A stretch of 23,069 nt of DNA from a virus. The notes below the pieces were generated by a model. That model was not told the origin of the DNA. It did no database searches and saw only the letters and a program-made list of their open reading frames with translations. A program made the position numbers and the translations under genes. The stretch's first letter is position 1. Each line of letters begins with the position of its first letter. Positions 2,244-22,558 of the stretch are shown here, in pieces. The stretch lies in the IMG/VR virus record IMGVR_UViG_3300037119_004034, positions 1-23,069 of that record; one strand, given 5' to 3'.

Positions 2244-2539
2244 TAACCCGACTGCACCTCGACCATCCAGCGCAGAATCTCGTTCATCTGGCCGAGCGAG
2301 ACCGGGTTCTCCTCACGGGCGCGCAGCTCGTCCCAGCGCTCAGAGGCGCCGTTCGTCTGATCGAGGAACAGCTTGATCTTCGAGTCCGTGTAGACGAGCG
2401 CGTCGACCGACTTCTCGGGTGTCTCCTCGTCCTCCCAGGAAGCGATCACCTCGGGACGCACCAGCCGCATCAGGAACTTCTCACCCCCGATTGTGAACTC
2501 CAGATCCTGTGCGAACTCTTGATCAAAATCACGTGCCAT
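2168..2539 (-). CDS. Tail assembly chaperone (G-like), 123 aa
   Basis: Tail assembly chaperones bind the tape measure and help tail tube polymerisation; they are not retained in the virion. The protein begins with a short β-type segment around residues 12-26 (LEFTIGGEKFLMRLVRPE), followed by an acidic helical region. It ends with a segment like ILRWMVEVQSGYPT, which resembles the usual end of siphophage chaperones, where a Gly-x-Pro-Thr precedes a low-complexity tail. The start is an ATG with AAAGGAG at 2545-2551, five bases upstream. The last 25 or so zero-frame residues are Pro/Ser/Arg-rich, and the alternative -1 frame is more protein-like, as expected for a G/GT pair. Identification rests mainly on position and architecture. 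Confidence 0.75.
   Translation of the reverse strand: MARDFDQEFAQDLEFTIGGEKFLMRLVRPEVIASWEDEETPEKSVDALVYTDSKIKLFLDQTNGASERWDELRAREENPVSLGQMNEILRWMVEVQSGYPTPQPAPSAAGRGRTATPSSARSR
2243..2249 (-). other. Candidate -1 ribosomal slip site in tail chaperone
   Basis: The transcript reads GGGTTAC, with zero-frame codons GGT and TAC. Slipping back one base would read GGG and TTA. P-site re-pairing is good and A-site re-pairing is poor, so this is an imperfect heptamer. The next codons, CCT to CCC, offer a second chance to slip. It is placed here because the -1 frame becomes protein-like just downstream. The exact site is inference. Confidence 0.35.
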
Positions 2540-2550
2540 AGGAACTCCTT

Positions 2551-3093: not shown

Positions 3094-3410
3094 TAGACAA
3101 CGTTCCCGTGGCGCCTCCGCATGGCGCGACCCATCCAGCTAGCGAGGCGCTCATCTTCTGCTTTTCGAGACAGCCGCTGCTCCATCGACTTCGAGTTCTT
3201 CGTCCCGATCTCTGCAACCAGCTCGCCGGCTTCGGTGCGATACGTCGGCTCCTTGACGAAGTCGCCGAAGCCGCGCATGACGTTGCGAGCTTCCTCTTCG
3301 AGCTCGAGCGCGGTCTGCTCCGCATCCGCCTTCAAGAACTTGCCGACTGCACCCGTCGGGCTGTGCAGCAGCTGATCCATCGCCGAGCCGTTGAACTCGA
3401 AGTCGCTCAT
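3093..3410 (-). CDS. HK97 gp10-like neck protein, 105 aa
   Basis: The gene sits directly after the head-tail connector and before the presumed tail terminator, where HK97 gp10-like neck proteins are usually found. The protein is short, highly charged and mostly helical. An acidic helix (LKADAEQTALELEEEARNV) is followed by a short β-hairpin-like stretch (YRTEAGELVAEIGT) and a basic C terminus (GRAMRRRHGNVV). The start is the ATG at 3410, which overlaps the connector stop as ATGA. The same frame stays open upstream, but that part is an arginine/proline-rich shadow of the connector. Assignment is by position and general architecture. Confidence 0.5.
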   Translation of the reverse strand: MSDFEFNGSAMDQLLHSPTGAVGKFLKADAEQTALELEEEARNVMRGFGDFVKEPTYRTEAGELVAEIGTKNSKSMEQRLSRKAEDERLASWMGRAMRRRHGNVV

Positions 3411-4507
3411 ACCGGCTGCGGGAAACGCTCCGATGCCACCGGCGACCAGATCACTGGCCCGCGCTGCAGGCCGGCGGGGTTGAAGGTGGACAGGAAGGCG
3501 TCGACCAGCGGCATGCCGGTGTGCCAGCCGGTGCCCTTGACCCAAGCCGTCACGGCGTTCAGGTCGACGATGATGCCCTGGCGGGTGACGCGCGAGACGC
3601 CCTTGGGTAGATCGCACTCTTCGCCGTTGCATTCCTTCAGCAGTTCCTTCGCCAGCTGAGCCGCGGCCAACTTGCCGATCTCGGGCGGGTAGCGCCCGTA
3701 GGTGTAGGTGATCGAGAAGGTGCCGTCCTCGGAATCGTCCAGCGTCACGTTCTGGCAGGAGGGCCAGCCGCGATGCAAGACCGGCGGCCCAGGATCGTCG
3801 AGGCGCTGAAGGTACTTCTCTCGGACGACGCGGTAGGAATCTGGATCGACGACGTCGCCGTCGATCTTCACCTCGACGATCGTGCGCACGGGCGAGTAGA
3901 GCTTGATGATGCTCTCCCCCGTGCAGCCACAGTCATCCTCTCCGCAGCGCCAGGAGCCGAGGTCGTCGCGCCAGTGGACGAGGTGGCCGCGAGACAGCAC
4001 CTGCCAGCCGCAGGAGCAAGCCGTCCGGCAGGGGCGTACGTTGATCGGGCCGCAGAGGCCCGAGAACCTTCGCCCGGACAGCGAATACATAATCTCCGAA
4101 CCCACCTGCGCCCAGTAGTCGAGGTCGGGCCCCGACGTCGATTCCTCGACTCCGCAGGCGACCAAATCCTCGCCAGAGATCCAAGAGGTACAAGGGCCGA
4201 GCTCCGTGCCCGCCGGCGTCGAAGGAGTGGAGATCGGCAGATCCTCGGTGACGATCAGCTCATCGGCAGCCCAGTGGTTGTCGCCGTCGTCCCAGACCAC
4301 CGTGTATTGGCCGGCGCTCGGCTCGGCTGTCAGCGTCACCTGATAGATGCCGGACCCGGCTGGGTCTTCGATGATCCCTGCCGTCGTACGCGGGGTGACG
4401 GTGTTGCCAACGTTGTCGACGACACGCACACCGATGGTTCCCACCAGTCCGGTCGTGCCGAAGTCGACCACCGCCTCGAAGTTGGCCGAGGGGAGGCTGT
4501 AGATCAC
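3407..4507 (-). CDS. Head-to-tail connector/adaptor with Ig-like N-terminal domain, 366 aa
   Basis: The C-terminal two thirds matches the head-tail adaptor family common in actinobacterial phages, which bind under the portal. Diagnostic segments include YSLSGRRFSGLCG at about residues 141-153, then a Cys cluster, YSPVRTIVEVKIDG at about 204-217 and a C-terminal TRQGIIVDLNAV followed by TGMPLVDAFLSTFNP. Residues of about 1-90 form a β-rich, Ig-like extension (FGTTGLVGTIGVRVVDNVGN, then GIYQVTLTAEPSAGQYTVVW) not needed for the adaptor core; it may decorate the neck or bind carbohydrate. Nine cysteines lie between residues 106 and 195 (106, 118, 152, 160, 164, 166, 188, 193, 195), which could bind metal or form disulfides. 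It starts with GTG at 4507, seven bases after an AGGA. Confidence 0.8.
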   Translation of the reverse strand: MIYSLPSANFEAVVDFGTTGLVGTIGVRVVDNVGNTVTPRTTAGIIEDPAGSGIYQVTLTAEPSAGQYTVVWDDGDNHWAADELIVTEDLPISTPSTPAGTELGPCTSWISGEDLVACGVEESTSGPDLDYWAQVGSEIMYSLSGRRFSGLCGPINVRPCRTACSCGWQVLSRGHLVHWRDDLGSWRCGEDDCGCTGESIIKLYSPVRTIVEVKIDGDVVDPDSYRVVREKYLQRLDDPGPPVLHRGWPSCQNVTLDDSEDGTFSITYTYGRYPPEIGKLAAAQLAKELLKECNGEECDLPKGVSRVTRQGIIVDLNAVTAWVKGTGWHTGMPLVDAFLSTFNPAGLQRGPVIWSPVASERFPQPV

Positions 4508-4535
4508 GCCGTGATCCTACGGCTTCGTTCGGCTA

Positions 4536-4784
4536 TCAGGCGCTGAGGTACAGGGCTGCGAGCGCGGCGGATCGCTTCTTCTGATCCTTCGCGGCATCGC
4601 CGGTCTGGTCGGCGAAAACGGCCACGTTCTTCTGCCCGAAGCTGGACCCGTCGAGCAGCGTGGCAAGCTCCCCGTTCGTCAGCGTGATCCCGTCCTTGTA
4701 CGAGTACGCCTCGACATCGGTGCCGCCACCGTTGATGTTCGCTAGCTGCTGGTCAGACCCGTTGACGACTGTGTAGTTGACCAC
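4536..4784 (-). CDS. Small protein of unknown function, 82 aa
   Basis: This gene lies between the SAM methyltransferase and the connector. The GTG start at 4784 has a strong AAAGGAG Shine-Dalgarno at 4790-4796, which is among the best in the window and suggests high expression. The sequence is acidic and β-like in its first half (DVEAYSYKDGITLTNGELATLLDG). The second half contains FGQKNVAVFADQTGD and ends in an alanine-rich helix (KRSAALAALYLSA). There is no signal peptide, membrane segment or cysteine. I do not recognise a family. High predicted expression and position suggest a small structural or decoration protein. Confidence 0.7.
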   Translation of the reverse strand: MVNYTVVNGSDQQLANINGGGTDVEAYSYKDGITLTNGELATLLDGSSFGQKNVAVFADQTGDAAKDQKKRSAALAALYLSA

Positions 4785-4804
4785 GTGCTCTCCTTTCTAC
4801 AGGT

Positions 4805-5410
4805 TCACTCGGATGGAAAGACGCCCCAGAAGGCACGGCCGCAGGCGCCCCCCTCATTGATCTCACCGCTCGAGCCGACGTGCCCCAGCCAGAGCTGGAG
4901 CTCGTCCTGGTGGAGTTCGTGAGGATGGCCGTCGTGGGGCGGAAGATCGAGCCACTCGAAGATGCGAATCCGTTTCGCGCAGCGGCGGCTCTCGCGGACG
5001 ACGAGCTCGGGATCGCGGACGTGCTGGAGGACGTTGTAGATCCACACCTCGTCAGCGGAACGATCGGGCACGTTGGGCAGGAAGTCCTCCGCGTACTCGA
5101 GCACCCAGTTGATGTCCGCCTCGAGGTAGCGCATCGCCACCCACTGTGGGAATAGGCAGGGGTCGATAACCCCGAGCGATCCAGGGTTTCGGCACTTCAG
5201 GAGCAGCGAGCAGGGACCGCCGCCGATGTCGAGGATGGAGTAGCCACCGAGGTCGATCTCTGGCCCCGGACCGCCGAGATCCATTAGGACCAGCTGCATG
5301 TAGCGGGCGTACACCAGCTGCTTCGTTTCCTCCCCGTAGGTGTTCTTGCAGTCGCCCCACCAGGCTGCCTCGAACTGCTGCTCCTCCGAGATGGTGGTCA
5401 CGGTGCCCAT
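4805..5410 (-). CDS. Class I SAM-dependent methyltransferase, 201 aa
   Basis: The protein has a Rossmann-type SAM-binding motif I, SILDIGGGPCS, at residues 58-68. An acidic strand end follows (LGVIDP, about 79-84), then a motif IV-like DEVWIYNVLQHVRDPE at about 120-135, as in the Methyltransf_11/UbiE-like group acting on small molecules or sugars. The ATG at 5410 is one base past the stop of the collagen-like gene, so translation is coupled to it. A GTG at 5401 would have a better-spaced AGGA and would lose three residues. The same frame is open further upstream but is an Ala/Arg-rich shadow of the fibre gene. The substrate is not evident. A methyl transfer to a glycan, or less likely to the fibre protein itself, fits the position. 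Confidence 0.82.
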   Translation of the reverse strand: MGTVTTISEEQQFEAAWWGDCKNTYGEETKQLVYARYMQLVLMDLGGPGPEIDLGGYSILDIGGGPCSLLLKCRNPGSLGVIDPCLFPQWVAMRYLEADINWVLEYAEDFLPNVPDRSADEVWIYNVLQHVRDPELVVRESRRCAKRIRIFEWLDLPPHDGHPHELHQDELQLWLGHVGSSGEINEGGACGRAFWGVFPSE

Positions 5411-5411
5411 C

Positions 5412-8393
5412 CTAGAAGTGCGTCGTGACGACGACGCAGCCGTGCCCACCGCGACCGCCGAAGCCATTCGCCGCGCCGCCACCGCCGCCACCACCGCCGC
5501 CGGGGAATCCTCCGGTGCCACCAGCGGCGATGGAAGCTCCTCCGCCGACGCCGCCCGAGCCACCGTAAGGCAGCCTTCCAGATGTCCCCCCCGAGGCGCC
5601 CTGCGCGGAGTTGACGCCCGCCATTCCGCCGCCCATGCCAGATGCGGAGATGTTCGTGTTCGTGCGCCCGCCCGAGCCACCGCCACCACCCCTCATGCTG
5701 TCTCCGTTCGCGCCGAGACCGAGGCCCGCGTCGGTGTCGCCGCCCGACTCACCGCCGCCGCCTCCGAAGTCCCCCTCGGAGCCGCCAACCGGTGCTGTCG
5801 TTCCCGATCCGCCGGGAGCGCCACCGTTGGCGTTCGCCCGAGCAGCCTGCGCGTCATTGAGTTCGCGCCGGGTGGTACTCACGGGCGGCGAAGTCGTTCC
5901 GCTGCCGGAGCCGCAGCCGCCATTGCCACCGTCGGCCGAGGCAGCCGCCGTTGCCGCCGTCCCAGGGACGCGAGACGTGTTCGTCAGGGGGCCGGGGTTG
6001 CTCTTGTCGAACTCCGACAGGGTGCCCATGTTCCCGGCCTGGTTGAGCGCCGTACCAGCCGCGCCGCCAGCGCCGGCTATGAGGACGACCGATGTGGGCA
6101 GGTCCGAAGCGTTGTACCACGCCTCGGCGTAGCCGCCACCACCACCGCCCCCGCCGCCCGCCGAGGTGACCGCACTCTGGCCCCCGGAGCCGCTACCGCC
6201 ACCGTCGCACAGCTGCACGAAGACGCGCCGTGCGCCCGACGGCTTGATCCATCTGTCCTGAGCGTTCGTCGGGGAGCCGATGAAGATCTGGGTCTGAACT
6301 CCGCGGGCAGCGGGCATGAAGGATGACGTGTCGGCCGGAAGGAAATGAATGCGGGTGCAGAGGTCGTAAGACGTGTTCGCCCAGGTGACGGTTGTCGCGT
6401 CTACCGACCCCTCTCCATCCTTCACACCGGAGGCCATGTAGAGGAAGCCGCCCGTGCCATCGGTCGTGCCGTCGTCGAACTGCTCGGTCAGGGAGGAGAG
6501 ACTCGCGTTCGTCAGGGCGGAGCCTTCGGCGCTGGCGTTGTCTGCGCTCCCGGCGAAGATGTCCACGACGAGGACCGCGTCACAGAACGTCTGTGAGGCA
6601 GGACTCGTCCCAGTAGTCGAGGTAGTGAACTTCCAGTTGTTTCCGCCGAAGGCGAACGGATCGTCTGCGTCCTGGGCGCCTCGCACCGCGAACATAAAGC
6701 CGTAGGTGTGATCACCGGTGTCGACAAGCGTGGGCGCGGACTCAGCGCCGTTGTCACGCTTCCAGAAGATGCAGAGCCGGTTGGCAGTCGCGAATGAAGC
6801 GGTATTCAGTCCGTTCTGCGGACCGAGTTGCGTGTAGCCAGCGGGAGCGGCTACCAGCCCGTCATTCGATGTCTGGAGGACGAGGACGAGGATGTCGTCG
6901 GCAGCGTGCGTGCCGGGCAGCGTTGCGGTCGGCGTGCCGGTACTCGAGAACTCGGCGCCGACCGAGATGACCTCCGGGGCCGTCGGAGCAGCCGCTGCCC
7001 CGGTCGCGCCTGTGGCACCCACGCCGGTAGCTCCGGTAGCTCCGGTGGCACCGTTGGCACCCGTTGCGCCCGTGGCCCCGGTCGCGCCGGTGGCGCCCGT
7101 GTTCCCGGCACCAGTAGCCCCCGTGCTGCCGACCGGGCCAGTCGCGCCGGTGATGCCTATCGGGCCGATGATGCCGTCTGGCCCGACGGGGCCGGTAGCT
7201 CCTGTCGCCCCGTTCGCCCCAGTGGCACCGGTCGCCCCCTGCGCTCCGGTCGCTCCCGTCGAACCCTGAGCGCCCGTCGCTCCGGTAGCGCCCGTCGCTC
7301 CCTGCGTGCCGGCGGTGCCCGTCGCACCGGTAGATCCCTGGGCGCCAGTAGCGCCGGTTGATCCCTGAGCGCCTGTGGCACCTGTGGCGCCCTGAGCTCC
7401 AGTCGCCCCGGTGATGCCGGTGGGCCCGGCCAGACCATCGAGGCCGATAGGACCAGTCGCCCCGGTCGCGCCGGTCGTACCCTGCGCTCCCGTCGCCCCC
7501 GTCGTCCCTTGCGCCCCGGTGGCCCCTGTCGCGCCATTCGCGCCAGTCGCCCCTGTCGTCCCCTGCGCGCCCGTGGCTCCCGTGGTGCCCTGGGCGCCCG
7601 TGGCGCCGGTAGTGCCGACCGCTCCCGTCGCCCCCGTAGATCCTTGAGCTCCCGTGGCACCAGTGGAACCCTGCGCGCCAGTCGCCCCCGTAGCGCCATC
7701 CGCTCCGGTGGCACCCGTGACCCCGACCGGGCCGATGATCCCATCCGGCCCGACTGGTCCCGTAGATCCCGTAGCTCCTGTAGATCCCTGCGCTCCCGTT
7801 GCTCCGGTCACGCCTACGCCGCCGGTCGCCCCGGTCGCCCCGGTCGCACCCTGCGTACCGGCGCCCGTCGCGCCCGTGGCGCCAGAGCCTCCCACCGATC
7901 CGGTAGCGCCCGTCGTGCCAGCGCCGGTGGCGCCCGTGGCGCCCGTGGCGCCCTCGGAGCCCGTAGCCCCGGTGGCGCCCTGCGTTCCTGATCCAGTGGC
8001 ACCGGTGGCACCAGCGCCGCCGGTCGCTCCGGTGGCCCCTTGCGTGCCAGCACCGGTAGCGCCTGTGGCACCTGATCCCGTAGCTCCAGTGGCTCCGTCT
8101 GATCCAGCGCCTCCTGTGGCTCCTGTCGCACCAGTAACTCCAGAACCTGTAGCGCCAGTGGCGCCGGTAGCGCCGTCAGAACCAGCAGACCCAGCAGAGC
8201 CGGTGGCGCCTGTCACACCTGCGCCGGTAGCGCCGGTAGCGCCAGTCGCTCCGACGCCGGCGACGATCGCTTCGGGAACCCACCTCTGGGCGCCGGCGTC
8301 CCAGGTCAGCGCGTCGTTGTCGGCCGGCGGCGTCGAAACAACATCGACATCGAAGAGCTCGCGCAGCCTCCGAAAGAGACGGAGGGCGGGCAT
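5412..8393 (-). CDS. Collagen-like fibre protein with glycine-rich C-terminal domain, 993 aa
   Basis: This is a putative virion fibre or host-binding protein in four parts. Residues 1-47 are a leader with a short basic amphipathic helix ([11 protein letters not shown]) and a [12 protein letters not shown] segment typical of phage fibre attachment regions. Residues of about 48-464 are Gly-X-Y triplets, mainly GAT, GAQ, GST and GTT, with occasional one-residue interruptions of the register. Residues of about 466-690 form a non-repetitive, β-rich domain. Residues of about 697-993 are extremely glycine-rich, with runs of Gly next to GYAEAW and VVLIAGAGG, as in the Gly-rich domains of phage adhesins. 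It ends in [12 protein letters not shown]. The ATG at 8393 has no Shine-Dalgarno at normal spacing and lies at the edge of a strong hairpin. A SAM methyltransferase follows after one base. It is probably trimeric, and the triplet threonines are potential O-glycosylation sites. Confidence 0.88.
7000..8252 (-). repeat. Gly-X-Y collagen-like coding repeat with spaced Pro-rich inserts
   Basis: About 415 codons encode triplets beginning with Gly, dominated by Gly-Ala-Thr. Synonymous codons vary greatly between copies, so the repeat is kept at the protein level and is not a recent DNA tandem expansion. Three related inserts interrupt it: [16 protein letters not shown] near 7729-7765, [16 protein letters not shown] near 7422-7455 and [16 protein letters not shown] near 7159-7190. 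Confidence 0.92.
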
Positions 8394-8417
8394 AGGGTTA
8401 CTACGCCCGCCCTTCCG
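8380..8417 (-). promoter_or_regulatory. GC-rich hairpin enclosing the start codon of the collagen-like gene
   Basis: GGGCGGGC at 8384-8391 is perfectly complementary to GCCCGCCC at 8405-8412. One further A-T pair, a one-base bulge and three more pairs extend the stem to about 12 bp, with a 13-base loop. In the transcript the 5' arm contains the only purine-rich stretch (GGAAGGGCGGG), and the start codon at 8393-8391 sits at the loop/3'-arm junction. It may repress translation of the fibre or attenuate transcription. No U-run follows, so it is not a classical intrinsic terminator. Confidence 0.6.
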
Positions 8418-8420
8418 TTA

Positions 8421-9077
8421 CTAGCTCGTCGAGGTTACGGACTGCGCAGCGCAGTCTGCTGTCGGCGGTTCGACGTCCGTCTTCCAGTAGGCACCATCGC
8501 TGATGTCTGAGCCGTCTGGCGGACCGTCACCGTAAGGGCCGTCTCCCCAGTTCGAGTTCGTGCGGGAGAAGCCGTTCAGCGAGATCTGCGTGGCGTCCTC
8601 ACCGAAGGTGTTGTCGGCCAGCGACCAGGAGGTCGAGGGGAACACCCAGTGAATCCAGGGGAACGCCCCGTCCTGGCCTGAGCCAACAACGTGCTTCGTC
8701 CAATACTCGAAGGCGACCGAAGGAAGGTCGTCGTCGCAGTCGAGCGAGGATGGGAACACGAGGCCGACGACATCGCCTGAGTCGTCGATCGTCTCTCCAC
8801 CCAGCAGGAACGCCTCCATCTCGGGCTCGAGTGCAGCCTTGTTGAAGCTGAACTCGAACCAGTTGAAGGTGTCAGGGAACTTGAACCGCGCGACCGAGCA
8901 ACCACACCCGTTCCGAACCGAGACCGTGTTACCGCTCTCGATGTTCGGCGTCAGTGTGATCTCAATCGGGCTGTCCGTGACGTACGACATGGAGCCTGCG
9001 ACCACGTTGCCAGCTGAATCGACCACCGTGAGACGCACGGCGCACAAGCCGAATGAAACACCACAATTTACGGCCAT
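8421..9077 (-). CDS. Structural protein, possibly tail tube or head-associated, 218 aa
   Basis: The gene lies between the capsid region and the fibre. The protein is β-rich and acidic. An N-terminal half of alternating strands (VRLTVVDSAGNVVAG, then SPIEITLTPNIESGNTVSV) leads to a central NWFEFSFNKAALEPEMEAFLLGG at about residues 72-94, which reads like segments of phage tail tube proteins that mention the size of the tube subunit loop. The C-terminal part is Gly/Asp/Pro-rich and flexible. Five cysteines lie in the first 110 residues. No other clear tail tube gene is present in the window, so this or its neighbour at 9117-9941 may fill that role. The ATG at 9077 has AGGAGG at 9087-9092. Stops TAG and TAA follow in tandem. 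The specific role is uncertain. Confidence 0.6.
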   Translation of the reverse strand: MAVNCGVSFGLCAVRLTVVDSAGNVVAGSMSYVTDSPIEITLTPNIESGNTVSVRNGCGCSVARFKFPDTFNWFEFSFNKAALEPEMEAFLLGGETIDDSGDVVGLVFPSSLDCDDDLPSVAFEYWTKHVVGSGQDGAFPWIHWVFPSTSWSLADNTFGEDATQISLNGFSRTNSNWGDGPYGDGPPDGSDISDGAYWKTDVEPPTADCAAQSVTSTS

Positions 9078-9116
9078 TGACCTATTCCTCCTTTCGCCTC
9101 GTCGGTGGTCAAGCCG

Positions 9117-9941
9117 CTAGTCCCAATCCACGAGAACGCCGACCTGGAGGGCGGTGTCCCATAGGGCAAGGACAGGTCGCTCGGCACGGAAGGTGACCGT
9201 GTTGTCCGAGCGGTCGAGGGCTTCGGCAATCGGCGGCACGGTGATCTCTCCCAGGTACACGCGCACCGGTCCCGTGGCGAACATCCAGTCCTGATCTGCG
9301 GCTGGTGTGGAGCCACCGTCGGGGTCGGTGTCGATGTAGCCCGAGCCAGAGACCACTGGTGTCCCCGAGCCGGTCGTGTAGAGCTGCCCTTCATCCGAGT
9401 AGGTGAGGGCAGGGTTGAGCGCCGCCAGCGTGCCCGGAGCGGCATGGATGACTCCACCACGCCCGGTGCCGGCGATTGCATCCTCGAGGTAGGCCAGCGC
9501 GACGGCGGGAGACTCTGTAGCGCCTCCCAGAATCGTCAGGTTGGCATCCCCGAAGAAGGGGTTGTTCGTCAGCGGTGCGTTGTCGAAGCCCTGGGCGAGA
9601 ACCTGCTCGACGCCGTGCGACGTCGTCACGTCCAACGTCACCACCGCCATCTCGGCCAGGTCTTGCCAGCCGAGCGACGAGCAGGTGACGGGCAGGTAGA
9701 GGACGAAGGGATCGAAGCTCGCCTGCGGGCGATCCTCGCCTTCGGCCTTCTCCCGGAACGTGCCTTCTGAGCAAAGTCCCCAGGTCTCCGGCGTTGCCTC
9801 CGGGTAGCCGAGCAGATTGACGCCATTCAGCCAGCGCTCCGTCTGATCGAGCACGCCCGGTACTTCCAGCAACGTGTGCTTGCGACGAACAGGAGGGGGA
9901 CCGACGAGGTCGCGCCGGATACCTACCCCGGTGATAGCCAT
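9117..9941 (-). CDS. Head-region structural protein of unknown role, 274 aa
   Basis: This gene follows the major capsid gene directly. The protein has no signal peptide or membrane segment. It begins with a basic segment (GIRRDLVGPPPVRRKHTLLEVPG), then a region with ERWLNGVNLLGYPEATPETWG. A core of mixed helices and strands contains SFDPFVLYLPVTCSSLGWQD and LDVTTSHGVEQVLAQG. The C-terminal third has VRVYLGEITVPP and ends LWDTALQVGVLVDWD. A Gly/Asp/Pro linker lies at about residues 190-215. The pattern is like proteins encoded beside capsid genes in many actinobacterial phages and prophages whose function is not assigned. The ATG at 9941 is preceded by a GGGAGGGG stretch. It could be a capsid-associated protein or a tail tube protein. 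Confidence 0.6.
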   Translation of the reverse strand: MAITGVGIRRDLVGPPPVRRKHTLLEVPGVLDQTERWLNGVNLLGYPEATPETWGLCSEGTFREKAEGEDRPQASFDPFVLYLPVTCSSLGWQDLAEMAVVTLDVTTSHGVEQVLAQGFDNAPLTNNPFFGDANLTILGGATESPAVALAYLEDAIAGTGRGGVIHAAPGTLAALNPALTYSDEGQLYTTGSGTPVVSGSGYIDTDPDGGSTPAADQDWMFATGPVRVYLGEITVPPIAEALDRSDNTVTFRAERPVLALWDTALQVGVLVDWD

Positions 9942-9966
9942 CTCGTCAGTCCCCTCCCTCTAGCTC

Positions 9967-11757
9967 CTAGTCGCAGGTCCGCGCGGTTCCGGCCGGTGGG
10001 AACTGGCCGACTGCGCAGATGTCAGATGTCACCCAGTAGGCGGCCTGTTCGGGGCCGATGCGGGCGACGTTTCGGAAGACTTCCGAGAAGATCTGGAAGT
10101 CGTTGGTCGAGTTGAGCGTCGAGTCACGGACGATGCCCAGGTTGAGCTCACCCATGTCCAGACCGAGGAACGTGCCCTCGGGGTGGATGGCCCACTGGAT
10201 GTTGTCCGGGAACGGGTCGATGGCCGCGGCTGTCTGAGCCGAGTCGGCGATCTGGGTCGTTCCTGTCGACGGCGAGTCGAGGTAGTAGACCGGCTCGATG
10301 CCCGCCGAGCGGAGGTAGCTGTCGATGTCGCCGCGGGTGCGATAGCGCGTGTCCAGCTGGTTCTGGATCGTGTCCAGAAGCAGGATGTCCAGCGTCACCG
10401 CCGGCAGGAACGCCCGGAAGCGCGCCTCCCTCGGCAGACGCAAGCGCGACCGCATTCCGAAGGCAGACTTCGTGATGGCGTCCACCACGTAGATCAGCCC
10501 GCCCAGCGTCTCGGCGCCGTTCGTCACGTTGATCGACAGCGCCTTGATCCGATCGAGCATCCGCGTCTCAGCGGCTCGAGCTCGCTCGGCCATCGTCAGC
10601 TCCATCTCGTGCCGGATCTTCTCCGGCCAAGACATCGCCAGCAGGTTCCCGAACTCACGGCAGGCCGCGATGATGCCGACCGCCGTCTCCGTGTAGTCCG
10701 GGCAGTCGACGTCCAGGCAGGCCTTCGTTGCGAAGGTGCCGCCAAGGGCGTCGTCGGACTCCTCGATGATCGTGATCGCGCCGGTTGCGTCGCCCATCGT
10801 GGTCGGCGTCGGGACGTTGATGCCGCCCCTGTTCGCCCGGAACTTGGGCAGCGCGTCCCAGACCGGCTCCGCATCCGTTGCCAGCTGCGGCATCGAATAG
10901 ATCGGAGTCAGCGGGGCACAGAGCCCACCGGAGGCCACCAGCACGTCGAGTGCGCGGTGTCCCAGGTAGGGGCTACCGATCTCGCGGATCTTCTCCGCGT
11001 TCTCGGCGCCGTCACGACCGAGCGTGCGCTCGGGCGGGTAGTTGTCGCGGTAGTCGATCGAGGCCACGATGTGCTTGACCTCTCCGACCTTCGGGTCCGC
11101 AACAGAGTGCACCGGCGAGCCCAGGGCGCGAGCAGTTCTGGAGATCGCATCCGCGATGTCCTCGTCTGACTCGAACTTCTGGCCCGGCGTGGTCGTCGGG
11201 ACAAGACCGGAAGCGACGAAGCTCAGCTCCTTCGTTTCCGTAACAACGACCCGATCTGCTGCTGGAGCTGGCGGCCGGCGAAGAGTGACCTTGACCTTCT
11301 CGTTCGCTTCGGTCTCGGCTGCGGCGAGGACGAGCTCGCGATCCGCTGCTGGCTCCTCCACCTCAGTCTCCGCGCTTGCCTCTGACTCTGCAGCCTCTTC
11401 CTCACCCTCTGCTGCTTCGCCTTCTGCTTCCTCTGCCTCGCCTTCTGCTTCGGCCTCCTCCTCATCGCCCTCGGCCTCTGCCTTGGGGAAAAATCGAGAG
11501 GCGACCTCTGCCTTCGTCGAGACGTACTGCTCCTGCGCCTCGAGGCGCGTTGCCTTCTCGGCACGGAGCTGTTCGACCTGCTCCGCACCCATCTGGTACT
11601 GCTCGATGATCTGCTCGCCGGACAGGCCCTCCAGGAACTTCTCGTCGTCGGCGTCGATCAGCCGCGCCGCCTGAAGGTGCTCGTCCTCGAGACCCTGCAG
11701 CTCGTCGTCGGAGAGCTCGGCTAGAGCTTCCGGAAGAGCTGGAAAGAGTGAATCCAT
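9967..11757 (-). CDS. HK97-type major capsid protein with N-terminal scaffold-like arm, 596 aa
   Basis: This is the shell protein. Residues of about 10-88 are helical and charged (AELSDDELQGLEDEHLQAAR, then IEQYQMGAEQVEQLRAEKAT). Residues 93-137 are a nearly pure Glu/Ala/Gly acidic tract. From about residue 195 the sequence looks like an HK97-fold capsid protein of phages with GTFLGLDMGELNLGIVRD-type C-terminal motifs. It includes a long spine-like helix (SWPEKIRHEMELTMAERAR) and an FRAFLPAVTLDIL region. The N-terminal arm would act as a fused scaffold (delta domain) and could be removed by the protease encoded two kilobases upstream. The start is the ATG at 11757, with AGGAGG at 11763-11768. 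The acidic arm is longer than in HK97 (about 100 residues removed there). Assignment is by length, architecture and position. Confidence 0.85.
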   Translation of the reverse strand: MDSLFPALPEALAELSDDELQGLEDEHLQAARLIDADDEKFLEGLSGEQIIEQYQMGAEQVEQLRAEKATRLEAQEQYVSTKAEVASRFFPKAEAEGDEEEAEAEGEAEEAEGEAAEGEEEAAESEASAETEVEEPAADRELVLAAAETEANEKVKVTLRRPPAPAADRVVVTETKELSFVASGLVPTTTPGQKFESDEDIADAISRTARALGSPVHSVADPKVGEVKHIVASIDYRDNYPPERTLGRDGAENAEKIREIGSPYLGHRALDVLVASGGLCAPLTPIYSMPQLATDAEPVWDALPKFRANRGGINVPTPTTMGDATGAITIIEESDDALGGTFATKACLDVDCPDYTETAVGIIAACREFGNLLAMSWPEKIRHEMELTMAERARAAETRMLDRIKALSINVTNGAETLGGLIYVVDAITKSAFGMRSRLRLPREARFRAFLPAVTLDILLLDTIQNQLDTRYRTRGDIDSYLRSAGIEPVYYLDSPSTGTTQIADSAQTAAAIDPFPDNIQWAIHPEGTFLGLDMGELNLGIVRDSTLNSTNDFQIFSEVFRNVARIGPEQAAYWVTSDICAVGQFPPAGTARTCD

Positions 11758-11870: not shown

Positions 11871-12497
11871 TCACCAGTCATAGGCGTCTGCATCTTCGGC
11901 GAGAAGTAGCGCCTTCCAGCCCTCGACGGTTCTCATGCCCTTGACGCTGGGCACGCCCAGGTGCTCGACGAGCGAGGGCACGGTGACCATGAACGACTGC
12001 TGCGTGCGCTTCGCCCACTGTGCGCAGATGCCGTCGTCGGCCCGCGGGTTGGGATAGCCCCGGAGCTTCACGTCCGTCTTCGTCCACTCCAGGAACTCCT
12101 CGGCCTTCTGCCGAGGCCAGAGGCAGGCGACGAGTGGAACGAAGGGCGCGGGGTAGAGGCCCACGTAGGGCTGGCCTCTTGCAAAGGCCCTACGTGCTCG
12201 TGCCGCCGCGCCCACCGGCTGTTTAGCAAGAAACAGGCAGACCGGCGTTTCTGGGTTGGTCGCGGCGATCCTTCGTAGAGCGTCCGCGAAGTTCTGCACG
12301 GGCATTGCATCATCCTGGATGATCAGCAAGTGATCGCAGGGAGGGATGTCCGTCAGGCAGAGCTGATAGCCGGCCCAGGGAGACGGCGGCACCGACTCGT
12401 GCTCGATCACCTCGACGGGTAGCGGAGCCAGCGCGGCGAGCTGTGCTTCCCTAAGCTCTCGCCGCGCCGGGTAGGCCTGGACGCGGCAGCGGATCAA
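11871..12497 (-). CDS. Glycosyltransferase-like protein, 208 aa
   Basis: Residues of about 55-66 read DHLLIIQDDAMP, the GT-A pattern of a hydrophobic strand ending in an acidic pair that binds the metal of a nucleotide-sugar donor. Upstream is an N-terminal strand-helix unit (IRCRVQAYPARRELREAQLA). Downstream are PFVPLVACLWPRQKAEEFLEW and a conserved-looking PNPRADDGICAQWAK near residues 150-164. The layout fits small family-2-like or GT25-like glycosyltransferases. The start is a TTG at 12497 overlapping the microprotein stop as TTGA, so translation is coupled. It sits alone between the head genes and the major capsid gene, far from the other glycosyltransferases, which suggests modification of a capsid-region or fibre protein. 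Donor and acceptor are unknown. Confidence 0.65.
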   Translation of the reverse strand: MIRCRVQAYPARRELREAQLAALAPLPVEVIEHESVPPSPWAGYQLCLTDIPPCDHLLIIQDDAMPVQNFADALRRIAATNPETPVCLFLAKQPVGAAARARRAFARGQPYVGLYPAPFVPLVACLWPRQKAEEFLEWTKTDVKLRGYPNPRADDGICAQWAKRTQQSFMVTVPSLVEHLGVPSVKGMRTVEGWKALLLAEDADAYDW

Positions 12498-15819: not shown

Positions 15820-16119
15820 TCAGTCGTCGGATGCCGCACGCTGGATGAGCGGGACGAGCGCGGCCACCGCCACTAAAGTGGCGATCGCCGTCACCGTCTG
15901 CGGCCAGAACTGCCACGCTCCCCACCAGCCCAGAGCAACCCAGAAGCCGAGGCAGTAGGGACACTCCAGGAACTCCTCGAGGCTTCCCCGGTGACCGCCG
16001 GCACGGTTCAGTAGGTAGCGCCGCGGTCGGTCGAGGATCTGGTCGGAGGCCAGCAGGCACCAGGTCCGCCATGCGGCCAAGCCGAGCAGGGCGAGCTCGT
16101 ACCAGCCGGGGACGTTCAC
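15820..16119 (-). CDS. DUF1360-like small membrane protein, candidate holin, 99 aa
   Basis: The protein begins MNVPGWYELALLGLAAWRTW, with an ILDRPRRYLL segment, then EFLECPYCLGFWVALGWWGAW. The pattern WRTWxLLxxDxIxDRPR with a CPYCxGFW box is that of DUF1360 proteins, found in Gram-positive bacteria and their phages. There are two or three membrane segments, the last of which (TVTAIATLVAVAALVPL) is Ala/Val-rich. It starts with a GTG at 16119 in a GTGA overlap with the cell-wall hydrolase stop, so the two are translated together. The same frame is open further upstream, but that part is an arginine-rich shadow. Coupling to a hydrolase makes a holin or lysis helper plausible; DUF1360 has no proven function that I know. 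Confidence 0.7.
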   Translation of the reverse strand: MNVPGWYELALLGLAAWRTWCLLASDQILDRPRRYLLNRAGGHRGSLEEFLECPYCLGFWVALGWWGAWQFWPQTVTAIATLVAVAALVPLIQRAASDD

Positions 16120-17138: not shown

Positions 17139-17627
17139 TCAGTCGAGAGCGTTGTGGAACGAAAGAACCTCGTCGACGTACACAGCATTGACGTGCGGCA
17201 GGATGTCATGAAGGAACTCGCCGTCACCTGCGTAGGTCTCGGGGATGCGCTGAGCGCCGATCACGTCGCGGCGGATGATCGCCTGCCCGATGTCGACCGT
17301 GCCGATCATCACGTTCGTGGGGGCAGCGTGCAGGACGCCGAGCACTGAGTGCTGCTGGGAGACGACGATCGCTTCGGCCTCGGCGTTGTGGCGTGAGAAC
17401 AGCTTCCACAGGTCCGGATGCACCACCGTGTCGTCGTCGAGGAACATCACCCAGCCGTCGGTGATCTCGTCCAGCAACGTGTTCTTGACGGCTTGGCCTC
17501 CGACGTGACGCTTCGCCATGTCGAAGCGGATGTGCCAGATGAAGTCGGCGCGTCCCCAGGCGGCCAGCGACTCGGCGATCGCCGGCAGATTGTGCGGGCG
17601 CGTGCAGGCGGTCAAGACGTGCAGCAT
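17139..17627 (-). CDS. Small GT-A-type glycosyltransferase, 162 aa
   Basis: The protein opens MLHVLTACTRPHNLPAIAES, as in family-2 glycosyltransferases of phages and bacteria. WVMFLDDDTVVHPDLW follows at residues 59-74, in which D64-D66 is the metal/nucleotide-sugar binding triad. It is shorter than usual (230 or more residues), and the acceptor-binding half is abbreviated, with ETYAGDGEFLHDILP near residues 130-145 resembling the GDGE-type motif of retaining enzymes. The ATG at 17627 overlaps the stop of the CmcI-like gene as TGATG. It is the last of the five consecutive glycan-modification genes. Donor sugar and acceptor are unknown. Confidence 0.75.
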   Translation of the reverse strand: MLHVLTACTRPHNLPAIAESLAAWGRADFIWHIRFDMAKRHVGGQAVKNTLLDEITDGWVMFLDDDTVVHPDLWKLFSRHNAEAEAIVVSQQHSVLGVLHAAPTNVMIGTVDIGQAIIRRDVIGAQRIPETYAGDGEFLHDILPHVNAVYVDEVLSFHNALD

Positions 17628-18208
17628 CAGATCCGCCGCAGGAAGCCGCTCGGGTTCCAGGTGATGCCGAAGAGCTCGCGATCGCGGTCGGGCTCGAAGC
17701 CGTCGTTCTCGGTCAGGAAGTCGGAGATAGCTCGAGCGGCCTCGGGCACGACGCCGTCCTCGCAGATGAAGTAGTGCCCCGGCTGGACGAGGGTGCTGTA
17801 GACCCGCAGCACGGCCAGCGTGTTCTCGTAGGTGTGGGAAGAGTCCTCGATCACCAGCGCCGTGCGACCGGCCACCAGCTCGGCCACGTTCGGGTACTGC
17901 TCGATGGCGTCACCCATCAGGTTGGTGATGCGCGGATGCGCAAGGACCGCTCCTTGCCAGGTGGGGTCGATGTCGACACCGATCACCTGCCCGTGATCCA
18001 TCACGTCGCAGAAGTGCGCCAGCTTGAGCAGGTGGCCTCCCTGGTAGGAGCCGACCTCGACGATCACCTCTGGCCGCGTCGTCCACAGGATCTCCTCGTA
18101 AACCCAAGCATCGAGGGGGTTCTTGAGCGTGGGGATTCCGCAGTAGGTCGTCAGCTCCATGATGCGGCCCTGCATCTGTTCGAGGACGCCGGGAAGATCG
18201 TTCACCAT
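17627..18208 (-). CDS. CmcI/rhamnosyl O-methyltransferase-family protein, 193 aa
   Basis: Residues 46-60 read PEVIVEVGSYQGGHL, a SAM motif I. VIGVDIDPTWQG follows at 75-86 and LVIEDSSHTYENTLAVLRVY at 118-137. The C terminus has YFICEDGVVPEAARAISDFL then TWNPSGFLRR. The set 'VDID, then DSSHTYE, then EDG, then NPSGFLRR' is that of the RMNT_CmcI family, which includes cephalosporin 7-hydroxylase-linked methyltransferase CmcI and rhamnosyl O-methyltransferases. I infer methylation of a sugar hydroxyl, since it is flanked by glycosyltransferases. The start is the ATG at 18208, which overlaps the previous stop by one base (TGATG). The same frame is open further upstream, but that part is Arg/Ala-rich shadow. 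Confidence 0.82.
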   Translation of the reverse strand: MVNDLPGVLEQMQGRIMELTTYCGIPTLKNPLDAWVYEEILWTTRPEVIVEVGSYQGGHLLKLAHFCDVMDHGQVIGVDIDPTWQGAVLAHPRITNLMGDAIEQYPNVAELVAGRTALVIEDSSHTYENTLAVLRVYSTLVQPGHYFICEDGVVPEAARAISDFLTENDGFEPDRDRELFGITWNPSGFLRRI

Positions 18209-18801
18209 CAGTCGTTCAGGTAGACGAGCCCTAGCCCGCCCCACTCGGCTTCGGGGTCTGCGATCAGCTCTTCGGTCATCCAGCCGAAGCGCTTGATCTC
18301 CTTCCACAGCCACCAGACCTGAATGTCGGGCCAGGTGCGGCTTGGCGGCAGGATGTCGTGGAAGACGACGACGCCGGGGGCTCGGACCATCGGTCGGTAG
18401 TTCTCCCAGTCGTCTCGAACCTCATCGTAGAAGTGGCCGGCGTCGATGAACAGCCAGTCGTAGGGGCCGTAGCCGCGCACCTTCTCGATCGTGTGCTTCT
18501 TGCGCGAGTCGCCCTTGATCACCTGCAGGTCGAGCTCGTGGATGTTCCACTCGTCGTACAGACGACGGTTGTCGACGCCGACGAGGTAGGAGTCGACGGA
18601 GACGATGACGTCGGCCCAGTCGGCGCGCTGCAGCCAGTGGAAGAGCGTGCCGCCGTGGTAGGTGCCGATCTCGAGGATGCGCTCCGGCTTGCGGCGATCG
18701 AACATCTCCAACAGCTGCGAGAACTCTTCCTCCCACTGGAAGATGGGGACCGGCGCCGGAGGGCCGTAGCCCTCCGCCTGCTCAACGAGCTCGACGGGCA
18801 T
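18208..18801 (-). CDS. Class I SAM methyltransferase (Methyltransf_24/CmcI-like), 197 aa
   Basis: Motif I is ILEIGTYHGGT at residues 42-52. VIVSVDSYLVG follows at 65-75. WLFIDAGHFYDEVRDDWENY at 116-135 and GVVVFHDILPP at 143-153 are the typical acid-His and HD patterns of metal-assisted sugar or small-molecule O-methyltransferases. It differs from the neighbouring CmcI-like protein but belongs to the same broad group, so the cassette may methylate two positions on one glycan. It starts with ATG at 18801, overlapping the preceding glycosyltransferase by 20 bases, and its stop forms TGATG with the next gene. Substrate is not evident from the sequence. Confidence 0.8.
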   Translation of the reverse strand: MPVELVEQAEGYGPPAPVPIFQWEEEFSQLLEMFDRRKPERILEIGTYHGGTLFHWLQRADWADVIVSVDSYLVGVDNRRLYDEWNIHELDLQVIKGDSRKKHTIEKVRGYGPYDWLFIDAGHFYDEVRDDWENYRPMVRAPGVVVFHDILPPSRTWPDIQVWWLWKEIKRFGWMTEELIADPEAEWGGLGLVYLND

Positions 18802-19453
18802 GACGACGTCTGCGAGGTCGGGGGCCGATGCGACGATCGGCGAAGGCCTTCACGTAGTAGGGATCGTCCTCCCAGAGCTCGGTCTCGGAGAAGTCTGGCG
18901 ACAGCATCTCCAGGCAGGGCCGCGTCACTCGGTCCCAGGAGAAGCCGTACTTGATCACCTCCGGCGAGAAGTAGGTGTCCTCGGACATGCCGGCTGGGTA
19001 GCGTCGCCACGCGCGCTCGTCCCAGCGCAGGCCCTTGTTCCAGAGGATGCGGCGGACGATGCAGTTGCCGCCGGTGTTGACGGCGCAATGGCGTTCTTCC
19101 TCAGCGGTGCGCAGACCAAGTTGGCCCAGCCTGCGCTTCCGCTTCAGGATCTTCTCGACGTGCTCGCACCAACCGGGCAGGAAGCGCATGTCGTTGTCCG
19201 CTCGGTGCAGAAGCGTGGCGTTGTCGGGCGCCTGCTCCCAGCCACGGTTGGTCGCGTAGCCCGGATAGAAGTTCCGCCACAGGAACTCGTGCGGGTGCTT
19301 CTCTTTGATCAGCCAGTCGATTGTGCCGTCCTCAGAACCGTTGTCGATCACGTTGTAGGTGAAGGGGATCTCGATCGTCGACAGGTAGCTCTCGATCGCC
19401 TGCTTCGTCAGCTCGAGCCGGTTGTAGGTGACGAAGGTGGTGTGGATTCTCAC
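18782..19453 (-). CDS. Family-2 glycosyltransferase, 223 aa
   Basis: The protein opens MRIHTTFVTYNRLELTKQAI, then IDNGSEDGTIDWL at about residues 36-48, the nucleotide-binding part of family-2 glycosyltransferases. LLHRADNDMRFLPGW follows at 81-95 and supplies the D86-N87-D88 metal-binding triad. MSEDTYFSPEVIKYGFSW in the C-terminal third resembles the E-D-x-E-type acceptor motif. The GTG at 19453 is the start, forming a GTGA overlap with the preceding gene. An in-frame upstream extension is Arg/Pro-rich and is shadow. It is a soluble enzyme without membrane segments, in a cassette with two more glycosyltransferases and two methyltransferases. Donor and acceptor are unknown. Confidence 0.85.
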   Translation of the reverse strand: MRIHTTFVTYNRLELTKQAIESYLSTIEIPFTYNVIDNGSEDGTIDWLIKEKHPHEFLWRNFYPGYATNRGWEQAPDNATLLHRADNDMRFLPGWCEHVEKILKRKRRLGQLGLRTAEEERHCAVNTGGNCIVRRILWNKGLRWDERAWRRYPAGMSEDTYFSPEVIKYGFSWDRVTRPCLEMLSPDFSETELWEDDPYYVKAFADRRIGPRPRRRRHARRAR

Positions 19454-20109
19454 TTGAACGACTTCTGTCGTTTCGCGTAGGTCTGCCGGTCGCGCTGGAA
19501 CTGACGGAAGCCCTTGTCGTAGGTGGCGTCTCGTTCCTCGCCGGTGAAGGCCGGATGCTTGTGGCAGATGCGCGCCTTGTGGGCGAAGGCCCACTCGTGC
19601 CGGCGCTGCGCCAGCTTGCAGATCTCCACGTCCACCTGGTTGTGGTCGTAGCCCTCGTGACAGAGAACACCGGGCCCGTCGTTGGATGCTCCGCGCTCGA
19701 CGACGTAGGAACGCCGCACCATCGGGTGCGTCGAGAACTCGCCGCGCATCACCGATGGGTTGGCACAGTCGTTGGAGCCGATCACGCCCAGCTTCGTTTC
19801 CTCAGCCATCAGCAGGAGCTCGTAGTCCCAGCCCGCCTCGAACTCGATGTCGTCTGCGCCCAGCAAGCAGAACTTGCGGTCCGTGCGCGCGAAGGCATGG
19901 TTCATCTTCCGCGGGTACTCGGAGCGCCCGCCCTCGACCGTCAGCACACGGGCGCCGGTGTGCAGGCAGGCGTCGTAGTTCGCGGTGTCGCCCGCGGTGC
20001 AGATGAAGATGACCGAGAAGTCGACGATCGAGATCGTGCTCGCGATCGAGGCCACGACCTTCTTGGCGTTCTCGGGCCTGCCCAGCACGGGGATGAAGAT
20101 GTCGATCAC
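19450..20109 (-). CDS. GT-A-type glycosyltransferase, 219 aa
   Basis: The protein opens MIDIFIPVLGRPENAKKVVA, a family-2-like start. FCLLGADDIEFEAGWD follows at residues 80-95, in which the D86-D87 pair takes the place of the DxD motif. The middle contains GVIGSNDCANPSVMRGEFST, and the C terminus is Lys/Arg-rich (FRQFQRDRQTYAKRQKSF), possibly to bind acidic protein or nucleic acid. It starts with GTG at 20109, in a GTGA overlap with the large terminase stop, and ends GTGA onto the next glycosyltransferase. Some phages use such enzymes to glycosylate DNA bases, but no base-modification gene is seen nearby, so protein or glycan targets are more likely. Confidence 0.78.
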   Translation of the reverse strand: MIDIFIPVLGRPENAKKVVASIASTISIVDFSVIFICTAGDTANYDACLHTGARVLTVEGGRSEYPRKMNHAFARTDRKFCLLGADDIEFEAGWDYELLLMAEETKLGVIGSNDCANPSVMRGEFSTHPMVRRSYVVERGASNDGPGVLCHEGYDHNQVDVEICKLAQRRHEWAFAHKARICHKHPAFTGEERDATYDKGFRQFQRDRQTYAKRQKSFK

Positions 20110-21461
20110 GCCGGCACCGCCGTCTTGAAGCTCGAGTAGACGCGCGCCTTGGAGGAACCGGAGCGTTCGGTCAGCCAGTTGGCCGCCAGCGCCAGCGCGA
20201 TCACGCGGTCGTCGTGCTGGAAGCGATCGTGGTCGATGCGGTAGACGTTGGGCGACGACTCCTTCAGCCGCACGTTTCGCAGTTCGTCCAAGAGCTCGGG
20301 TTCCTCCGGGATGGCGAGTGAGTGTTCACGGATCAACTGCAGGAGGACGTTGGCGAGCTTCCCAACGGACGACGCAGAGAATACAAACTCCGAGACGTGG
20401 AGGCCCTTGCGCTTGAGACGCTGGGCCAGATGCACCGCCTGGTAGGGGTCGAAGCGCACCGAGGCCCGGTTGTAGCGCGAGGCCGCCTCCTCGATCCAAT
20501 CCTCCACCTGCTGCAGCTGCACCGGCTGCTTGAGCGAGCCGTGCCAGACCTGCATCCGGTCGAGAACGACGGTCGGATGTTCGTGACCTTCCTCACGCTC
20601 GGCGTGGCAGACGCAGGCGACGGTGGCGTCCGCGGTCAGACCGACGTCCAGCCCGATCACGTAGCGCTTGCCCCGCTCCGGCTCCTGGTAGCCGTCGAGA
20701 CGGATCGCTGCGATCAGGTCTTCCTCTGTCGCCAGCCGATCCTCGCCGGCCGCCCACTCGTTCAGGAACAGCCGCCGGAATGAGCTTTCCGGCAGCCGCC
20801 GGCGCTCGCCCTCCAGACGTTGCTCGTTCATCCAGGGAGGCGGACCGTGCACTTCGTGCACACGCCAGAGCTCGTCATCACGTGCGGCCTGGATCACGCG
20901 GGCAGACCAGTGAGCCGGATCAGAGGCGGTCGTCAGCAAGACCATCCGCGAGTCGGCCATCTTGGCAGCCGCCGTCGAGACCGCCTCGTAACAGCGCTGC
21001 GGGGGAGGAGTCGTGTGCCACTGACCGATCTCGTCGACGATCACGAAGTAGGGACGCAGGCCCCAGAGCGTCGCCTGGTCTGCGGGCAGGATGTGCAGCA
21101 TCGAGTTGGTGGCGTGGAAGTAGACCTTGTGCTCTCTGACGGTCAGCGTGCCCTGGAGCTCGGGGGTGCGGCTGTAGAAGCCCGCGACCGAATCGAGTAG
21201 CAGCGCAGCCTGGTCTCGAGCAGCGGCCAGCCCGTACATGCGCGTGTGCGGCGGCGACTGTGTGAGCCCGACCGCGATCGCCATGCCGGCCAGGTCGGAG
21301 GTCTTGGAGCCCCCACGGGCTCGCGTGAGGAAATGGTTCGGCCTTCCCTCACGGTCGAGCACGGCGCGGGCGTCCTCCCACTGGAACTCCGCTGCCGACT
21401 CACCCCAGCGGCGCCCATCCTCGAGGACGAGAGCAGAGAGAACGTCGAGCGCTTCGCTCAC
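20106..21461 (-). CDS. Large terminase subunit, 451 aa
   Basis: The packaging motor ATPase and nuclease. The ATPase has a Walker A-like TRARGGSKTS at residues 46-55 (K53), a Walker B FVIVDEIGQW at 139-148 with D143-E144, and a coupling motif LLTTAS at 175-180. The RNase H-like nuclease shows YVIGLDVGLTADATVACV at 267-284 (D272), RFDPYQA at 336-342 (D338) and HDDRVIALALA at 416-426 (D417, D418), giving a full acidic set. The start is a GTG at 21461 in a GTGA overlap with the DNA methyltransferase stop. The frame is open for about 240 codons further upstream, but that part is Arg/Gly-rich shadow of the methyltransferase gene, and 451 residues is a normal length. Confidence 0.9.
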   Translation of the reverse strand: MSEALDVLSALVLEDGRRWGESAAEFQWEDARAVLDREGRPNHFLTRARGGSKTSDLAGMAIAVGLTQSPPHTRMYGLAAARDQAALLLDSVAGFYSRTPELQGTLTVREHKVYFHATNSMLHILPADQATLWGLRPYFVIVDEIGQWHTTPPPQRCYEAVSTAAAKMADSRMVLLTTASDPAHWSARVIQAARDDELWRVHEVHGPPPWMNEQRLEGERRRLPESSFRRLFLNEWAAGEDRLATEEDLIAAIRLDGYQEPERGKRYVIGLDVGLTADATVACVCHAEREEGHEHPTVVLDRMQVWHGSLKQPVQLQQVEDWIEEAASRYNRASVRFDPYQAVHLAQRLKRKGLHVSEFVFSASSVGKLANVLLQLIREHSLAIPEEPELLDELRNVRLKESSPNVYRIDHDRFQHDDRVIALALAANWLTERSGSSKARVYSSFKTAVPA

Positions 21462-22558
21462 GCGGCCAGAATCCTGCGGCCGATCCACTCCGCCACGTTG
21501 GCGGTGACCGCATCGCCGAGTGCCGCATAGCGCTTCGAGTCCGTACCCTGTGCCGTCCAGCCGTCGGGCAGCGATTGCAGGCGTTCGCACTCGATCGGTG
21601 TCAGGCGACGGACGCCGATCTCCGAAGCGGCCAGCGACACACGATCGTGCTGCTGTCCATTCTTCGAGGAGAGCGAGAGTGCCAGCGGCGACTCCAGTGC
21701 CCGCAGGTCTGCGCCCTGTGTGCGTTCGGGCATGACGTTGAAGGTGCGGACGAGTGGCTGGCGATCTGTACGCGAGCCGCCGGCGCCGTTGGCTTTCAGG
21801 GTGCCGTTCTCGCAGTCTTCGACGTAGTAGCTCTCGTCGTTCACGAAGGTGTCCTGGCCACTTCGGCCCGAGCCAGTACGGCTTCCAGAGCCATCCGCAA
21901 GTGCGTAGGCAACTTCCGTCCCCGGCGATCGGAGCGCAGAAGAATGCCCTTCGCAGCGCGTGCCGAGAGCGAGTACCTCGCCGCAACGTTCTGCGGCGGC
22001 TCGAGTATCTGCGCGAGAGTAGGTTCCGAGGATGAACACCCGTCTTCGGCGCTGGGGCACTCCGAAGTAACGGCTGTCGAGAATCCTCCACGCCACGCCG
22101 TACCCGATGTCGGCCAGCGTTCCAAGCACGACTCCGAAGTCCCGACCGCCGTTCGAGGAGAGGAGTCCGGGTACGTTCTCGAGGAGAAGCCATCGAGGTC
22201 GAACAGACTCAGCGATTCGGGCGAACTCGTAGAAGAGCCCTGATCGGTCTCCCTCAAGTCCTGCCCGTCGGCCGGCGATGGAGACGTCTTGGCAAGGAAA
22301 GCCACCGCAGAGTAACCCGTTCCGGGCTTGCCACCATCCGAGGGCAACTGATGAGCCACTTCCGTCAGCACCAGCTCCCCCCGCTGGTTCTCCGACAAGC
22401 CGAACGTCTCGAAAGACGGGGACCCCGGGCCAGTGTCGGGTGAGGATGGCGCGTCGCCATTCGTTCGACTCACAGAAGAAGGCGTGGCGGTAGCCGGCTC
22501 TCGAGAGGCCGAGATCCATTCCTCCGATGCCGGAGAAGAGCGACCCGACACTAGGCAC
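21458..22558 (-). CDS. DNA C5-cytosine methyltransferase, 366 aa
   Basis: All core motifs of the C5-cytosine methyltransferase family are present in order. Motif I is SLFSGIGGMDLGL near the N terminus. Motif IV GGFPCQDVSIAG at residues 85-96 holds the catalytic Cys89. Motif VI is LLENVPG at 125-131, and motif VIII is QRRRRVFILG at 169-178. After a variable target-recognition region of about 120 residues come RRLTPIECERLQSLPDGWT and motif X (LGDAVTANVAEWIG, about 347-360). It should methylate cytosine in a short double-stranded sequence, protecting phage DNA from host or competing restriction enzymes. No partner endonuclease is visible. It starts with GTG at 22558, overlapping the small terminase by 8 bases, and is wedged between the terminase subunits, so it is expressed with packaging genes. 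Confidence 0.93.
   Translation of the reverse strand: MPSVGSLFSGIGGMDLGLSRAGYRHAFFCESNEWRRAILTRHWPGVPVFRDVRLVGEPAGGAGADGSGSSVALGWWQARNGLLCGGFPCQDVSIAGRRAGLEGDRSGLFYEFARIAESVRPRWLLLENVPGLLSSNGGRDFGVVLGTLADIGYGVAWRILDSRYFGVPQRRRRVFILGTYSRADTRAAAERCGEVLALGTRCEGHSSALRSPGTEVAYALADGSGSRTGSGRSGQDTFVNDESYYVEDCENGTLKANGAGGSRTDRQPLVRTFNVMPERTQGADLRALESPLALSLSSKNGQQHDRVSLAASEIGVRRLTPIECERLQSLPDGWTAQGTDSKRYAALGDAVTANVAEWIGRRILAA

Follow-up and report, generated by a model that had tools for sequence, protein, structure and literature searches.

A probable locus for glycosylation of phage particles

Virion glycosylation is established in a few mycobacteriophages, among which Corndog gp38 and Che8 gp110 are named as essential capsid-glycosylation glycosyltransferases (GTs) (PMC12363180). 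Papers citing Freeman et al. (2023) describe glycosylation of both the capsid and the tail tube by such phage enzymes (PMC11600133; PMC12363180). In cluster O mycobacteriophages (Corndog gp35-38 and Firecracker gp33-36), an O-methyltransferase and several GTs are encoded by overlapping genes inside the structural operon. The Firecracker cassette comprises an O-methyltransferase and three GTs, joined by overlaps of 4-8 bases and located between the portal and protease genes; on the basis of gene order, we equate Firecracker gp36 with Corndog gp38. Literature searches for phage CmcI-type genes or for virion glycans carrying methyl groups returned nothing closer. The locus described below would be a richer, methylating and exchangeable version of such a system in uncultured phages with unrelated heads.

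Gene order of the window

The window, i.e. the whole stretch of DNA analysed, is a 23-kb IMG/VR virus record and probably a fragment of a larger genome. Its minus strand encodes, in order, a C5-cytosine methylase, the large terminase subunit (TerL), a cassette of three GTs and two methyltransferases (MTs) (GT_A, GT_B, MT_C, MT_D and GT_E), a DUF1508-like small gene, an endolysin-like gene, a DUF1360 gene, the portal, the protease, a phrog_854 GT, the capsid and, farther on, a collagen-like fibre. The GT genes thus sit in or near the virion structural operon. The main features are:

22558-21458, minus strand: C5-cytosine methylase (Dcm), in the same operon and overlapping the TerL gene
20106-21467, minus strand: TerL, left border of the slot (phrog_9 at 7e-41)
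19450-20109, minus strand: GT_A, phrog_14945-like glycosyltransferase of GT-A fold (PHROG match and predicted fold)
18782-19453, minus strand: GT_B, family 2 glycosyltransferase (Pfam Glycos_transf_2 above cut-off)
18208-18801, minus strand: MT_C, Methyltransf_24/CmcI-like O-methyltransferase (Pfam, profile matches and conserved motif residues)
17627-18208, minus strand: MT_D, RMNT_CmcI O-methyltransferase (Pfam, 1.7e-26)
17139-17627, minus strand: GT_E, short glycosyltransferase of GT-A fold with an invariant DDD motif (Pfam GT2 and model)
15820-16119, minus strand: DUF1360 gene, conserved right border of the slot before the portal (comparison with portal relatives)
11871-12497, minus strand: phrog_854 glycosyltransferase (gt11871) adjoining the capsid gene (PHROG match; kept in L002 and L034-L037)
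8393-5412, minus strand: collagen-like fibre gene (Gly-X-Y repeats)
5410-4805, minus strand: phrog_3603 methyltransferase (E 1e-47)

We propose, with a probability of about 0.72, that the cassette forms the variable portion of a phage locus for virion glycosylation. The phrog_854 GT would initiate a glycan on a virion protein, and enzymes of the cassette would extend and O-methylate this glycan. As such, the system would be a variant of known phage virion glycosylation, its interest lying mainly in the exchangeable slot that the cassette occupies.

The link to the mycobacteriophage system is made through gt11871, which matches phrog_854 at E 1.8e-10 and Firecracker gp36 directly by blastp at E 1.8e-6; gp36 itself matches phrog_854 at E 1e-74. 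Both systems therefore have a phrog_854 GT, and in both an O-methyltransferase matches Methyltransf_24. They differ in several respects. The cluster O cassette lies between the portal and protease genes, whereas that of the window precedes DUF1360 and the portal, with the phrog_854 GT standing separately beside the capsid gene. Firecracker gp33 is a TylF-like O-methyltransferase, while MT_C and MT_D belong to another MT subfamily. Apart from the phrog_854 GT, none of the GTs and MTs of the window showed sequence similarity to the Firecracker O-methyltransferase or its other two GTs. The content of the slot also varies among relatives of the window. Given the shared phrog_854 GT, the window has the toolkit of the mycobacteriophage system, its second part being different and more variable.

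Gene joins

An earlier note, made from the letters of this DNA, described five overlapping minus-strand genes, and these exist exactly as given there: the TerL/GT_A and GT_A/GT_B joins are GTGA overlaps, GT_B and MT_C overlap by 20 bases, and the MT_C/MT_D and MT_D/GT_E joins are each TGATG. The note took this tight coupling to indicate a five-gene unit of fixed stoichiometry. We reject that reading as unproven because tight joins are not special to the cassette; other genes of the same operon overlap or abut too (Dcm/TerL, -10; small gene/endolysin-like gene, 0; endolysin-like gene/DUF1360, -4; portal/protease, -11). Moreover, MT_D is missing from the nearest relative (L002), and contig L034 carries GT_A and GT_B without MT_C and GT_E.

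Identity of the enzymes

GT_B and GT_E pass the Pfam cut-off for GT2. GT_A falls under its Pfam cut-off (E 0.089) and matches the phrog_14945 glycosyltransferase at 1.9e-6; its model (pLDDT 73) matches GT-A-fold enzymes. The model of GT_E (pLDDT 91.8) has SpsA as its best structural match (TMq 0.71-0.75), and several of its GT-A matches were solved with nucleotide. GT_E shares its predicted fold and an invariant DDD motif (D64-D66 among 13-15 aligned sequences) with SpsA-type family 2 GTs, although it has only 162 residues; in sequence, it matched no solved structure at E below 0.1.

The resemblance of MT_D to the CmcI/rhamnosyl O-methyltransferase family (PF04989, RMNT_CmcI) extends along almost the whole protein and takes in the acidic ED pair close to the C-terminal half (E 1.7e-26; 93.7 bits against a curated cut-off of 23.2; profile positions 5-206 of 206). 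CmcI binds SAM and a metal. MT_D aligns with CmcI itself at E 1.4e-9, again including the acidic pair, and is about 40 residues shorter. MT_C lies above the Pfam cut-offs for both Methyltransf_24 and RMNT_CmcI; it matches PF04989 in part only and is nearer to Methyltransf_24. In profile searches it matched metal-dependent O-methyltransferases, CmcI and PDB entry 3ssm, and E44, G46, D70, D120, H148 and D149 are invariant among 13-15 aligned sequences.

The assignment of three GTs and two MTs made in the earlier note is thus upheld by domains and predicted folds, and the nucleotide-sugar and SAM pockets whose absence would have spoken against it are supported by predicted fold for GT_A and GT_E and by profile for the MTs. 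For the four cassette genes common to the window and L002, dN/dS is 0.23-0.34 (portal, 0.35). Taken with the domains, the predicted folds and the identity to L002, this supports the conclusion that the five genes encode real enzymes.

Nearest relative

Contig L002 keeps the genes that it shares with the window in the order found there, including the start of the collagen-like gene. Protein identities are 64% for GT_A, 57% for GT_B, 65% for MT_C and 78% for GT_E, compared with 64% for the portal, 62% for the phrog_854 GT and 46% for the capsid. The earlier note placed the cassette between terminase and lysis genes. This holds in the window, where the DUF1508-like small gene and the endolysin-like gene downstream are compatible with a lysis label, but lysis genes are absent from the corresponding place in L002, and the conserved right border is instead DUF1360-portal.

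The two genomes differ in TerL family (phrog_38 in L002, phrog_9 in the window). Only the last 30 residues of TerL align, weakly (window 21467-20106, L002 about 1814-3280), and both genomes retain the 4-base join to GT_A. This pattern would fit a terminase swap with its break point near the end of TerL. In L002, GT_B and MT_C are also separated by an inserted HNH endonuclease gene (4519-5013).

A variable slot upstream of the portal

Slots were compared among contigs that were found as portal relatives and share the head module; these are mostly fragments, and the left border is unread in L035-L039. In L034, GT_A, GT_B and an MT follow the end of TerL. L035 has an asparagine-synthase-like gene, a GT, an MT and a further GT, followed by a small gene and an amidase. 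GT_A recurs in L036, alongside three MTs, further GTs and a PIG-L deacetylase, and in L037, together with MTs, GTs and a polysaccharide deacetylase. L038 and L039 have other GTs and MTs upstream of DUF1360-portal, among them relatives of Firecracker gp35, and L038 has an epimerase as well. No GT or MT of the cassette set was found in L040-L042, and in L042 the slot is empty, TerL being followed directly by DUF1360 and the portal. On this comparison of gene order, which the earlier note had suggested as a check for removable cargo, the block is indeed removable, and the cassette represents one of several contents of a variable slot ahead of DUF1360-portal.

The asparagine-synthase, GT and MT block of L035 is 62, 62 and 44% identical, respectively, to that of L026, a contig whose head genes remained unmatched in our searches; this suggests that blocks have been exchanged. 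It is conceivable, though we hold it only tentatively, that uncultured tailed phages possess a hypervariable virion-glycan slot before the portal. Phages that are otherwise unrelated would refill it by trading enzyme blocks, and surface sugars would thereby vary among particles of a single lineage. Such differences within a lineage would be comparable to the O-antigen types of bacteria.

The phrog_854 GT follows the state of the slot in these contigs. It lies between the protease and capsid genes or nearby in L034-L037, while L040 and L042 gave no phrog_854 match and have no room for such a gene between protease and capsid. It is present in filled-slot relatives with a readable capsid region and absent from empty-slot ones (about six versus two contigs, which share ancestry). 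The existence of an empty-slot relative, together with a capsid-type GT accompanying the filled slot, makes the role of virion sugars in nature testable by comparing filled and empty relatives.

The MT_C-GT_E pair

MT_C and GT_E occur together in 14 loci, namely the window, L002 and 12 further viral contigs. The two genes overlap directly by 1-19 bases in 9 of the 14 and are 2 bases apart in one; MT_D separates them in the window, and in three loci they lie 1.2-3.6 kb apart. The heads of the phages carrying the pair belong to unrelated families. Pairwise distances of MT_C and GT_E correlate (Mantel r 0.63, p 5e-5), and by this sequence measure the two are co-inherited. The cooperation proposed in the earlier note is thereby supported for at least MT_C with GT_E, whereas action of all five enzymes as a unit on one product is not supported.

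Capsid, protease, connector, portal or tape-measure genes, i.e. head, connector or tail genes, lie near MT_C/GT_E in nine loci (L005, L006, L009, L010, L024, L026, L027, L028 and L031). Relatives of GT_B were found in L002, L024, L026, L029 and L034, close to the pair in L024, L026 and L029. In L023, a relative of GT_A comes before the pair. The L026 locus is large (4425-11136) and contains a GT4, MT_C, GT_B, an epimerase, an asparagine-synthase-like gene, a GT, an MT, GT_E and another GT, followed by a tape-measure gene. GT_A-like GTs of Streptomyces phages (Gilson) sit among replication genes, and thus a GT_A-like GT alone is no marker of a virion locus.

A search of 50,697 phage records gave no match to GT_A, GT_E, MT_D or gt11871, and one distant pair only for MT_C. 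When viral contigs were scanned with TerL or with MT_D as single proteins, no matches were obtained. In bacterial genome contigs, GT_E had one weak partial match, in Gramella, and thus neither a prophage nor a cellular home was identified.

Proposed pathway and alternatives

In the proposed pathway, the phrog_854 GT (12497-11871), the likely initiating enzyme, would put the first sugar on a virion protein, which may be the capsid, the tail tube or the collagen-like fibre. GT_A, GT_B and GT_E would add more sugars from host nucleotide-sugars in the cytoplasm, and MT_C and MT_D, with SAM and a metal, would O-methylate hydroxyl groups of the sugars. The outcome would be a capped, lineage-specific glycan coat, which exchange of slot enzyme sets could alter while the head genes stay unchanged. 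Acceptor, sugars, order of action and benefit are what we infer for this pathway.

Within virion modification, the main acceptor could be the collagen-like fibre (8393-5412), with Thr glycosylation of its Gly-Ala-Thr repeats. Threonine glycosylation of collagen-like repeats is reported for Bacillus BclA. Repeat runs of the fibre contain 140 Gly-X-Y triplets, of which 63 are GAT, the start of the fibre gene in L002 has GATGATG repeats, and a separate methyltransferase gene (5410-4805) begins one base after the fibre gene. Nevertheless, Pfam Collagen is matched in only 3 of 16 module-bearing records, the window included (L002 adds a truncated one), and the cassette and the fibre gene are far apart; we consider the fibre an unlikely main acceptor.

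Modification of phage DNA is less likely than virion glycosylation and appears improbable. In this TET-type hypermodification, the C5-cytosine methylase would mark cytosines, an oxidase would hydroxylate them and the GTs would add sugars. The methylase gene (22558-21458) does overlap the terminase gene in the same operon, but a C5-cytosine methylase is present in only 2 of the 16 incomplete records (the window and one other). The window and 15 related records gave no Tet_JBP match, the contigs being incomplete and no control genome having matched either. MT_C weakly matches phrog_2675, labelled DNA methyltransferase. A GT of L003 matches the same model, which hence looks like a GT-MT fusion with a doubtful label. 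Both MT_C and MT_D fall in O-methyltransferase families. A further point for DNA modification comes from L040, a portal relative without GT or MT content in the slot, where a phrog_9677 protein and a phrog_842 GT (beta-glucosyl-HMC-alpha-glucosyltransferase) are encoded upstream of TerL (4743-7392).

Alteration of a host surface glycan in late infection or lysogeny, blocking re-infection as in seroconversion, is likewise less likely than virion glycosylation and seems equally improbable: cell-wall and polysaccharide GTs (SpsA, TarP, TarS and WrtF) are among the best fold matches of GT_E and GT_A, and deacetylases and an epimerase, which are glycan-tailoring genes, occur at the slot in relatives, but the five cassette proteins showed no membrane GT or flippase-like domain and no accepted transmembrane segment (the single hydrophobic peak of GT_A, residues 18-36, lies inside the core of its predicted fold), and the genes have head and tail genes as their neighbours in unrelated phages and go with the capsid-type GT.

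The fibre-associated methyltransferase

Relatives of the phrog_3603 methyltransferase (5410-4805), 44% identical, occur in Synechococcus phage ACG-2014f. There they lie just downstream of a collagen-repeat gene and are followed by a GT and a PiuC gene. Because these relatives also adjoin a collagen-repeat gene, the methyltransferase is suggested to be part of a separate fibre-modification unit.
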